Assembly (NCBI GenBank): GCA_024643785.1 | Contig: JAHEMI010000009.1 | Coordinates: forward strand, 1 to 40,238 | Reading direction: 5' to 3' | Source of the DNA: Burkholderiaceae bacterium | Lineage (GTDB): Bacteria > Pseudomonadota > Gammaproteobacteria > Burkholderiales > Burkholderiaceae_E | DNA: 40,238 nucleotides | Shown here: one piece after another, positions 31,263 to 33,987 of the stretch | Position numbering within the stretch: position 1 is the first letter of the stretch | How the letters are laid out: each line of letters opens with the position of its first letter | Made by a program: the position numbers and the translations under genes | The notes under the pieces: model-generated | The model's database searches: none | Told to the model about the DNA's origin: nothing | The model's input: the letters and a program-made list of their open reading frames with translations, nothing else

Positions 31263-31376
31263 ATGAAAGTAATGGCATCAGTGAAGAAAATTTGCCGCAA
31301 TTGCAAGATCATCAAACGCGACGGAGTCGTGCGGGTGATCTGCAAGGACCCGCGCCACAAGCAGCGCCAGGGTTGA
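31263..31376 (+). CDS. rpmJ: 50S ribosomal protein L36
   Basis: A 37-residue L36 in the gap between infA and rpsM. Translation from ATG 31263 gives [20 protein letters not shown] then [17 protein letters not shown]. The zinc ligands C11, C14, C27 and H32 are all present, so this is the zinc-binding form. Only 26 bases separate it from rpsM, too little for an E. coli-style S4 operator. Confidence 0.97.
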
Positions 31377-31402: not shown

Positions 31403-31768
31403 ATGGCACGTATTGCGGGCATCAACATTCCCGACCGTCAGCACACGGAAATCGGCCTGACGGCCATCTACGGTATCGGTCGCGCGCGCGCCCGTGCGAT
31501 CTGCGCGGCTGCCGGCATCGAATACAGCAAGAAGATCAAGGATCTCAACGACGCGGAGCTCGAGCGGATCCGCGAATCGCTGCTCCAGTTCACCGTAGAA
31601 GGTGACCTGCGCCGCGAGGTTTCGATGGCGGTCAAGCGGTTGATGGACCTGGGCTGCTATCGCGGCCTGCGCCATCGGCGCGGCCTGCCAGTGCGCGGCC
31701 AGCGTACGCGGACCAATGCCCGCACGCGCAAGGGCCCGAAAAAGGCCGGCATCGCGCTGAAGAAATAA
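31403..31768 (+). CDS. rpsM: 30S ribosomal protein S13
   Basis: A 121-residue S13 of the 30S head, contacting P-site tRNA and the B1 bridges. [20 protein letters not shown] with [16 protein letters not shown] (helix-hairpin-helix) and the C-terminal [19 protein letters not shown] are typical. It starts the alpha group. Confidence 0.98.
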
Positions 31769-31783
31769 TCGGAGAATCGGCAC

Positions 31784-32191
31784 ATGGCAAAGCAGGGTCA
31801 ACAGACCGCCGGAAAACGGGCGGTTCGCAAGAAGGTCAAGAAGAACGTTGCCGACGGCATCGCGCACGTCCACGCGTCCTTCAACAACACGATCATCACC
31901 ATTACCGATCGGCAGGGCAACGCGCTGTCGTGGGCATCGTCCGGCGGCGCCGGCTTCAAGGGTTCGCGCAAGTCGACGCCGTTCGCGGCGCAGATCGCTG
32001 CCGAGGCGGCGGGACGCAGCGCCCAGGAATGCGGGATCAAGAATCTCGAGGTGCTGATCAAAGGGCCTGGCCCGGGTCGCGAGTCGTCGGTGCGGGCGCT
32101 GAATGCGCTCGGTATCAAGATTCTCTCGATCTCCGACATCACGCCGATTCCGCACAACGGCTGCCGTCCGCCCAAGCGCCGGCGGATCTAG
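31784..32191 (+). CDS. rpsK: 30S ribosomal protein S11
   Basis: A 135-residue S11 of the 30S platform. The core [20 protein letters not shown] and the C-terminal [18 protein letters not shown] are family-typical; the basic N-terminal stretch ([13 protein letters not shown]) is a little longer than in E. coli. A 168-base structured gap follows. Confidence 0.98.
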
Positions 32192-32359
32192 TTTTCCGAA
32201 TCCGGGCGTGTCCCGGCGCCCGTATCGCGTGCCTTTGGCGCGCGATTGAATCGCCGGACGTAAGACCACTGTTCGACGCCGAGCGTCTGCTGCATGAGAC
32301 CGGGCCCATCAAGTCGGACTAACCGCGAAGCGATTCGCGTACAGACAGAAGGATAAAAC
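32192..32359 (+). promoter_or_regulatory. rpsK-rpsD structured gap, candidate S4 operator
   Basis: Three hairpins lie in this 168-base gap. CCGGG (32202-32206) pairs with CCCGG (32212-32216). ATCGCG-T-GCC (32224-32233) pairs with GGC-G-CGCGAT (32237-32246), one T-G, around a TTT loop. CGCGAA (32324-32329) pairs with TTCGCG (32334-32339) closing a GCGA (GNRA) tetraloop, about 8 bases before the rpsD ribosome site. No promoter or T-run terminator is evident. In E. coli, S4 represses the alpha operon through a pseudoknot before rpsM; here that gap is only 26 bases, so regulation may have moved to this site. That is inference. Confidence 0.45.
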
Positions 32360-32983
32360 GTGGCACGTTATATTGGACCAAAGGCCAAACTGTCCCGCCG
32401 TGAAGGGACGGACCTGTTTCTCAAGAGCGCGCGTCGCTCGCTGGAATCCAAGGCCAAGCTCGACAGCAAACCGGGCCAGCACGGCCGGATGTCCGGCGCC
32501 CGCACCTCGGACTACGGCGTGCAGTTGCGCGAGAAGCAGAAAGTCAAGCGCATGTATGGCGTTCTCGAGCGCGTTTTCCGCCGTTATTTTGCGGAGGCCC
32601 TGCGCCGCCGCGGCAACACCGGCGAGAATCTGCTGAAGCTGCTGGAGTGCCGGCTCGACAACGTCGTCTACCGGATGGGGTTCGGCTCGACCCGTGCCGA
32701 GGCTCGCCAGCTGGTAAGCCACCGGGCGATCGCGGTCAATGGCCGGGTCGTCAACATCGCATCGGCTGCCGTGCGGCCCGACGATGTCATCAGCGTTCGC
32801 GAGAAGTCGAAGAAGCAGGCGCGGATCGTCGATTCGCTCAACCTCGCCGAGCAGATCGGAATGCCGGGCTGGGTATCGGTTGACAAGACCAAGATGGAAG
32901 GCGTGCTGAAGTCGGTTCCCGACCGCAGCGACCTCGCGGGCGACATCAACGAAAGCTTGATCGTCGAGTTGTACTCGCGCTAA
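32360..32983 (+). CDS. rpsD: 30S ribosomal protein S4
   Basis: A 207-residue S4, the primary 16S rRNA 5'-domain binder and fidelity protein. It starts at GTG 32360 after AGAAGGAT (32347-32354). [20 protein letters not shown] starts the protein, and the S4 RNA-binding fold includes [20 protein letters not shown]. The zinc cysteines of the alternative form are missing, so it is zinc-free. Confidence 0.98.
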
Positions 32984-33000: not shown

Positions 33001-33987
33001 ATGCAGACAGCCATGCTGAAACCACGCATCGTCGAGGTCGAGAAACTCGGACCGTCGCACGCCCGCGTGGTCATGGAGCCGTTCGAGCGTGGCTATGGGC
33101 ACACGCTTGGCAACGCACTGCGCCGTGTCCTGCTGTCCTCGATGGTCGGCTATGCGCCGACCGAGGTACAGATCACCGGTGTGGTGCACGAGTACTCGAC
33201 GATCGACGGCCTTCGTGAGGACGTCGTAGACCTGTTGCTCAACCTGAAGGGCGTCGTGTTCAAGCTGCACAACCGCGACGAAGCCTTCTTCACGCTGCAC
33301 AAGGACACCCCGGGGTCGGTAACTGCCGCCGACATCGAGCTGTCGCATGACGCCGAGATCATCAATCCGGATCACGTCATCGGCACGCTGACCCAGGGCG
33401 GCAAGCTCGACATGACGATCAAGGTCGAGCGTGGTCGTGGCTACGTCCCCGGTACCCTGCGCGACATCGGCGAGACCAAATCGGTCGGCCGGATTGTGCT
33501 CGATGCCTCGTTTTCCCCGATCCGCCGGGTGAGCTACGTGGTCGAGAGCGCGCGCGTCGAGCAGCGCACCGACCTCGACCGGCTGGTGGTGGACGTCCAG
33601 ACCAACGGCGTGATCTTCCCCGAGGACGCAGTGCGCCAGTCGGCCCGCATCCTGGTGGAACAGCTGGCCGTGTTCTCGGCGCTCGAAGGCGGCGACCCGT
33701 CACAGGCGCCCGGACTGGAGCCCGATGGCGAACAGCCCGAACTGGATCCGCTCTACGTCCGTCCGGTCGATGACCTGGAGCTGACGGTCCGTTCGGCAAA
33801 CTGCCTCAAGGCCGAGAGCATCTATTACATCGGCGACCTGGTGCAGCGCACCGAGAACGAGCTGCTCAAGACTCCCAATCTTGGCCGCAAGTCGCTCAAC
33901 GAGATCAAGGAAGTGCTCGCAGCACGCGGACTCACGCTGGGGATGAAACTCGAGAACTGGCCGCCGGCCAATCTCGAACGCCCCTGA
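33001..33987 (+). CDS. rpoA: DNA-directed RNA polymerase subunit alpha
   Basis: A 328-residue alpha subunit. The N-terminal domain that dimerises and binds beta and beta' has [20 protein letters not shown] and [13 protein letters not shown] flexible linker near 235-245 leads to the C-terminal domain, which recognises UP elements and activators ([34 protein letters not shown]). AGAGGAA (32988-32994) precedes the ATG. Confidence 0.98.

Follow-up and report, generated by a model that had tools for sequence, protein, structure and literature searches.

The window, that is, the whole stretch of 40,238 nucleotides that was analysed, carries the ribosomal genes rpmJ, rpsM, rpsK and rpsD followed by rpoA, with successive gaps of 26, 15, 168 and 17 bases. 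The 26-base gap lies between the end of rpmJ at 31376 and the start of rpsM at 31403, and the 168-base gap between the end of rpsK at 32191 and the GTG start of rpsD at 32360; the ORF coordinates thus bear out the two sizes (26 bases before rpsM and 168 bases between rpsK and rpsD) that had been given by an earlier reading made from the letters of this DNA alone (the sequence-only reading). The features of the long gap and of the adjoining genes are collected in Table 1.

Table 1. Features of the rpsK-rpsD gap and its neighbours, in positions of the window
Feature	Position	Strand	Basis
rpsK (S11), upstream neighbour of the leader	31784..32191	+	ORF and homology
Upstream hairpin A, outside the clade-wide element	32203..32222	+	fold
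Upstream hairpin B, outside the clade-wide element	32224..32246	+	fold (shorter and longer)
Conserved 5' element AAGACCACU, family consensus AAGNCCAYY	32262..32270	+	alignments, gap sequences
P0 (probable), 5' strand CCAC, partner GUGG at 32360-32363	32266..32269	+	minimum-energy and centroid fold; tetramer and start-codon counts
P1, 5' strand GUUCGAC	32271..32277	+	covariation
P1, 3' strand GUCGGAC	32313..32319	+	covariation
P1-P2 junction strand UAAC	32320..32323	+	conserved in the window's family f1; other families differ
P2, 5' strand CGCGAA	32324..32329	+	covariation, outer 5 pairs
P2 loop GCGA (GNRA), not conserved	32330..32333	+	GNRA in 8 of 33 parsed leaders
P2, 3' strand UUCGCG	32334..32339	+	covariation, outer 5 pairs
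Shine-Dalgarno AAGGA	32349..32353	+	sequence
rpsD start GUG and following G, P0 3' strand (probable)	32360..32363	+	fold; start-codon counts
rpsD (ribosomal protein S4)	32360..32983	+	ORF and homologues
rpoA, the operon gene after rpsD (gap of 17 bases)	33001..33987	+	ORF and gap reading

In the window, 32203-32222, 32224-32246 and 32324-32339 fold into hairpins, the third being P2 with its GCGA loop, and the second and third appear also in a longer (199-nt) fold. Thus, the three hairpins that had been noted in the gap, one with a GNRA cap, are present in the window folds, but conservation does not extend to the two 5' hairpins or to the GNRA loop. The pairing of 32203-32246 is kept, as judged by eye, in the same-genus relatives L002 and L006. 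Hairpin P1 (32271-32277 with 32313-32319), absent from the hairpins noted earlier, is one of the two best supported elements. As to fold energy, the 199-nt fold has a z of -1.56, with 10 of 200 shuffles equally good, and the stretch with the two 5' hairpins a z of -2.69, a value matched by 1 of 200 shuffles; for the conserved 3' part, the fold energy is no better than that of shuffled sequence (z -0.39 and -0.12), and it is the comparison between relatives, not the fold energy, by which this part stands above chance.

Conserved stems and the probable helix at the start codon

The S4 protein was found in 57 of 61 relatives, and the rpsK-rpsD gap was read in 30 loci and then in 20 more, with further readings covering 60 loci across the order, 32 of f1 (the family of the window), 5 loci of other families, and 46 of family f19 and genus g19. 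Nearly all f1 members and some others share the block AAGNCCAYYG before rpsD, after which the gaps read as a stem GUYCG...CGRAC, UAAC, a second stem, a Shine-Dalgarno sequence and a GUG start. The order of the conserved element is, accordingly, the 5' block AAGNCCAYY, hairpin P1, hairpin P2, the Shine-Dalgarno and the GUG start. The RNA is real and conserved, and it takes up the 100 bases at the 3' end of the gap before rpsD.

The two stems were assessed on two alignments. In A2 (17 rows, made by MAFFT without structure and omitting L026, L027, L032 and L033, which MAFFT misaligned), 97.5% of the cells are paired, as against 88.7% in shuffles and at most 46% with the partner slid by 1-3 columns, and 6 of the 12 pairs show changes on both sides. 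The model R1 consists of 17 leaders of f1 only, with the coding and Shine-Dalgarno bases excluded. Its 63 aligned matches (A3, an alignment fitted to the structure, which favours the pairing figures, and including one chance match, L007 at 1015-1072) have 97.3% of the cells paired, as against 78.9% in shuffles and at most 43% when slid. In A3, 11 of the 12 pairs of P1 and P2 have changed on both sides and none of 500 shuffles reach these values, related leaders being counted as separate cells, so that the covariation figures and the start-codon figures given below overstate independence. U-G pairs are frequent (19 of 63 at one pair in A3), which speaks against a DNA site and for an RNA with the sequence of this strand. 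The sequence-only reading had suggested a search for covarying stems in the rpsD gaps of relatives, and such stems do exist: P1 and P2 covary across the aligned leaders, which provides the conserved secondary structure with covariation that marks a ribosomal leader.

Over 83 loci, R1 matched 62 of the 73 with the element, each time 10-64 bases before the rpsD start and including four families beyond f1 (f8, f17, f31 and f49), and none of the 10 loci without it; genera g13 and g19 were among the 11 element loci missed.

For 32260-32364, both the minimum-energy and the centroid folds are a three-way junction closed by CCAC-GUGG (P0). CCAC-GUGG was at first taken for a possible pseudoknot, which was rejected, since the pairing is nested outside P1 and P2 and is, therefore, a junction-closing helix. 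The mean pairing probability of P0, which is only 4 pairs long, is 0.29-0.69 by family versus 0.00-0.20 with a shuffled middle, and the RNAalifold consensus contains the helix for f17, f31 and f49 and comes without it for f1, f8 and two named sets.

The second strand of this helix would include the start codon, and the bases of its first strand were, accordingly, counted together with the start codon. Among 185 distinct leaders, in which 80 of the at least 119 loci of an RNA-only pattern scan are represented (75 distinct leaders, all pre-selected for CCAC by the pattern), CCAC occurs with GTG in 167 and with ATG in none. The three ATG leaders of the main clade (g13 twice, g19 once) all carry CCAU, and CCAU with GTG, which makes a U-G pair, is found in 11 distinct g19 leaders; CCGC with GTG, keeping the pairing, and CCCC with GTG, breaking a P0 pair (L031), occur once each. 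The association between tetramer and start codon has a Fisher p of 3.8e-4 with f19 excluded, the start-codon rule resting on two lineages. The counts as such include three f19 rows, namely CCAT/ATG (L345, where an upstream frame was matched by chance), CCGC/ATG and CCAC/GTG (L353, the leader of which resembles that of another family), the first two not being comparable with main-clade leaders, and L356, with CCAC and GTG by eye, stands outside the counts. By genera, GTG is the usual rpsD start in 37 of 38 with the element versus 10 of 42 without it (L022, L028 and f19 omitted); GTG across the clade could simply be inherited. The formation of P0 is likely but not proven, as it belongs to the best predicted fold and the pattern of changes fits pairing, and the leader is a concrete case where a pairing requirement of the RNA seems to limit which start codon is used.

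Distribution in Burkholderiales and the neighbouring spacers

The RNA-only pattern scan of the genome collection returned at least 119 stretches, and all the 119 listed lie at most 260 bases 5' of an rpsD start located by tblastn, this start being GTG in every one of them. The 80 named matches are, among the matches listed, mainly of Paraburkholderia, Burkholderia, Caballeronia, Trinickia, Herbaspirillum, Undibacterium, Collimonas and Noviherbaspirillum. The position upstream of a ribosomal-protein gene, rpsD, is thus consistent, as in other ribosomal leaders. In a search of 349 genomes of the order with R1, 24 genomes matched, 18 of them before rpsD (10 of f1 and 8 of f31) and 6 at unrelated chance places. 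With the broader model R2, the best 23 matches in the order sample (at least 27.1 bits) all lie before rpsD, and 5 of the 30 loci returned are chance places; the weaker matches of R1 and R2 that exist away from rpsD look like chance. In the class sample (274 genomes), none of the 19 non-own matches, the best of 28.0 bits, was in a locus with an rpsD found by tblastn, and in the phylum sample (200 genomes) none of the 8 matches from outside the order was near rpsD. Both of these scans use strict filters, by which known members were missed (e.g., G084 and G127 of f49), and weak members outside the order are, therefore, not excluded.

Within the order, the element is present in f1, f8, f31, f49, two of the three f17 genera read and one f4 genus (g19, 16 of 16 genomes), and it is absent where rpsD closely follows rpsK. 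The median rpsK-rpsD gap is 134 with the element (range 68-425, 113 loci, one genome being contained twice as L034 and L369) and 16 without it (range 10-82, 50 loci), L022, L028 and f19 being left out of both counts. In a tree of S13 and S11 with 78 rows (6 of the 84 chosen rows were skipped because of missing, short or broken genes), a single branch, with a support of 99/93 and the bootstrap not settled, sets apart 47 rows that include all 35 element rows; the remaining 12 rows of this clade belong to f4 (6), f19 (5) and one f17 genus, and the 31 rows outside the clade are all without the element. The element is thus confined to one Burkholderiales clade in the genomes sampled, and, because the tree puts every element row in it, a single gain followed by losses is the simplest account. 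Inside the clade, the element is wanting in L022 of the window's own family, in the f4 genera read except g19, and in the f17 genus g138. Among the losses, L125, L128 and f4 have a short rpsK-rpsD gap and L022 a gap of 91.

The sister family f19 has a content of its own between rpsK and rpsD. In 13 of 30 f19 loci (L340, L342-L351, L358, L360), a tiny reading frame MG[LIFY]DNL... stands there, with a variant LGLDNI from TTG in L348, and a related frame VEYGTDNL is found in L352, L354, L355 and L357; judging by these letters, it appears to be a conserved upstream frame. In L361-L368, by eye, P1 and P2 are like those of the main element, with an ATG start, and seven of these eight loci (not L366) have a 5' strand AUCC able to pair with a GGAU just past P2 and not with the start codon. 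Apart from this, the S4 protein of many families of the order (L042-L049 and many genomes) is about 50-56% identical to that of the window and begins mostly with ARN[LT]DP versus ARYIGP/ARYTGP; from this low identity and the differing N-terminal start, there seem to be two S4 types within one order.

The long gap may be also read as a transcript boundary, with a terminator after rpsK and a separate rpsD-rpoA-rplQ unit that has its own promoter and the RNA at its 5' end. Terminator-like hairpins stand 5-110 bases 5' of the element in the rows listed, and a hairpin of this kind with a T run was counted in 10 of 10 loci of f8, 4 of 7 of f17, 3 of 8 of f49, 3 of 10 of f31 and 53 of the 80 named matches, where letter shuffles give 0.6, 0.1, 0.2, 0.5 and 2.9, respectively. 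However, the count is just 1 of 61 in f1 and 0 of 1 in f4, and the window between 31000 and 34500 holds two terminator-like sites versus 3.0 expected by chance, one at the rpsK end (32166-32187) and the other inside rpsD, with no promoter-like site found in that range and no stable hairpin with a T run found inside the window's gap. In addition, several members have about 6-20 bases between the rpsK stop and the element, too few for the gap to contain a promoter, and a boundary leaves the covarying stems beside the start codon unexplained. A boundary as the whole account of the gap is, on this evidence, improbable; from the 5' hairpins, rpsM-rpsK and rpsD-rpoA may be partly separate transcripts in some families. 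In L030, L075-L078, L081, L083 and many named Oxalobacteraceae, a closely alike hairpin CCCGCCA...TGGCGGG, then TTTTG or TTTTT, precedes AAGNCCAC.

The spacer before rpsM bears on the origin of the element. Seven families without it (f5, f13, f21, f27, f32, f44 and f51) have 54-75 bases before rpsM, and a promoter-like site was found in the rpmJ-rpsM spacer of 22 of their 23 loci versus 0 of 23 element loci, a comparison made without a shuffle control and with element-locus spacers mostly too short for such a site; the shorter rpsM spacers of f3, f22, f38 and most of f4, likewise without the element, lay outside this promoter scan. An anticorrelation between the rpmJ-rpsM and the rpsK-rpsD gaps was dropped as a sign of relocation because the longer spacers hold this promoter-like site. 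Of the 20 loci scanned for the Rfam family Alpha_RBS (RF00140), 17 give a score of 27-41 bits at rpsM, some carrying the element and some lacking it. In a rescan covering the window and the four loci with a score above the cut-off of 38 bits (L099, L085, L037 and L110), the match was gone once the rpsM coding bases were excluded, and it rests, therefore, on protein-coding letters.

The sequence-only reading had suggested that the rpsD gap may hold a relocated S4 site, namely the site of the alpha operon that lies at rpsM in E. coli. The operon and the presumed ligand are indeed shared, and at rpsM the cut-off of Alpha_RBS is passed by 4 of the 15 scanned loci without the element (38.3-41 bits), the five scanned loci with the element remaining below it (27.3-35.7 bits; the window, 35.7). 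However, beyond the dependence of these matches on coding letters (in the four loci and the window), Alpha_RBS has no match in the rpsD gap of the window at E <=10, the location is another one, with the 3' end of the element at the start of rpsD and not of rpsM, and its fold differs in being nested rather than a pseudoknot. In several sister families that lack the element, the spacer before rpsM is promoter-like and shows no site of the E. coli type. Relocation, already disfavoured, is thus highly improbable, and the promoter-like rpsM spacers and the coding-dependent Alpha_RBS matches agree better with an independent origin within this clade than with a moved site.

A probable S4-type leader and its relation to known systems

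We consider it probable that the rpsD-gap element is a structurally new, S4-type cis-acting ribosomal leader acting at rpsD, with S4 as its putative ligand. S4 would be the natural ligand because rpsD adjoins the element and S4 leaders precede rpsD or rpsM in other lineages, and the position over the start codon suggests a control of the translation start. In the proposed mechanism, the mRNA would fold into the three-way junction of P1, P2 and the short closing helix P0 over the rpsD start codon; surplus S4 would bind the junction and the conserved AAG and stabilise P0, and the stabilised P0 would hide the start codon, so that rpsD and, by coupling, the downstream rpoA and rplQ would be repressed, with rpsM and rpsK left under other control. 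The earlier suggestion that control acts at rpsD itself holds insofar as a conserved structured RNA, probably involving the start codon, lies directly at the rpsD start, which makes such control likely; the putative role of S4 as ligand is suggested by the gene context.

Alternatively, the conserved RNA may set the efficiency of rpsD translation or the processing of the mRNA, either without binding a ribosomal protein or by binding something other than S4, the long gap then breaking the coupling of rpsD to rpsK. What is established is the structure and the position, and the rRNA-like site in the element is a post hoc likeness. Nevertheless, the closest gene is rpsD itself, and several lineages have known or predicted S4 leaders, mostly dissimilar among themselves, in front of rpsD or rpsM, according to the main text of PMC7247131; we regard such an alternative as unlikely, though of real weight.

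The likeness in question was noticed after the fact and serves as a lead: AAGNCCACYG together with CUAAC resembles AAGCACCGGCUAAC at E. coli 16S position 498, a stretch which we take to be an S4 site. The 16S-like 5' block alone arises in 196 of 1000 shuffles and the joint pattern in 2 of 1000. A more far-reaching proposal joins these observations, and we put it forward as tentative, with considerable doubt. A new class of S4 leader would go back to a single origin at the base of a large Burkholderiales clade, would hide the start codon in the closing helix of a three-way junction, and would copy a part of the 16S S4 site (AAG..CACCG, CUAAC); it would hold rpsD to GUG because the RNA needs that base, the RNA having changed along where the start became AUG. 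In f19, the closing strand would apparently have switched to bases beside the Shine-Dalgarno, and in other members of that family a tiny upstream frame would stand in its place. If S4 binds the leader, a further RNA target unlike the others is added for this protein, and throughout a whole clade there would be a testable point of control for both S4 and the RNA polymerase alpha subunit.

As for described families, Rfam 15 holds no convincing match for the element: there was no match in the window's gap at the curated cut-offs, only the chance-level sX14 at E <=10 (32166-32251, 16.0 bits with a cut-off of 80, E 3.8), and, at E <=0.1 in 20 loci (5 with the element), no family except Alpha_RBS at rpsM. 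The literature searched, with supplements and most subscription papers outside the search, describes no rpsD leader in beta-proteobacteria, and the main text of PMC7247131 contains neither the word "Betaproteobacteria" nor the word "Burkholderiales". Beta-proteobacteria keep E. coli-like alpha operons, as is stated in the available text of a 2024 review (PMC10931766).

Several S4 leaders are, nevertheless, comparable by their placement. The S4 leader of Bacillus is located before rpsD (PMC10931766, available text), and for the S4 leaders of Firmicutes and Fusobacteriales the main text of PMC7247131 reports a proposed rRNA mimicry through GUAA. In the element, GUA at the P2 end is common in f1, with GUGA or other letters there in f31 and f8, as read from the bare letters, apart from their context. 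The predicted S4 leaders of Bacteroidia and Flavobacteria precede rpsD-rpoA-rplQ, with S4 as the likely ligand (PMC7247131, main text), and the element is like them in its placement before rpsD and in the likely ligand; they are, however, hairpins that resemble neither one another nor earlier S4 leaders nor rRNA in any meaningful way, as far as the same text goes, whereas the element is predicted to be a three-way junction. In E. coli, the alpha-operon S4 site at rpsM forms a pseudoknot, and S4 traps the initiation complex at rpsM (PMC10931766, available text). Alpha_RBS is likewise an RNA element located at a translation start of this operon, in E. coli a GTG, but it lies at rpsM and is, in E. 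coli, a pseudoknot, whereas the element of Burkholderiales lies at rpsD and is probably a nested junction.
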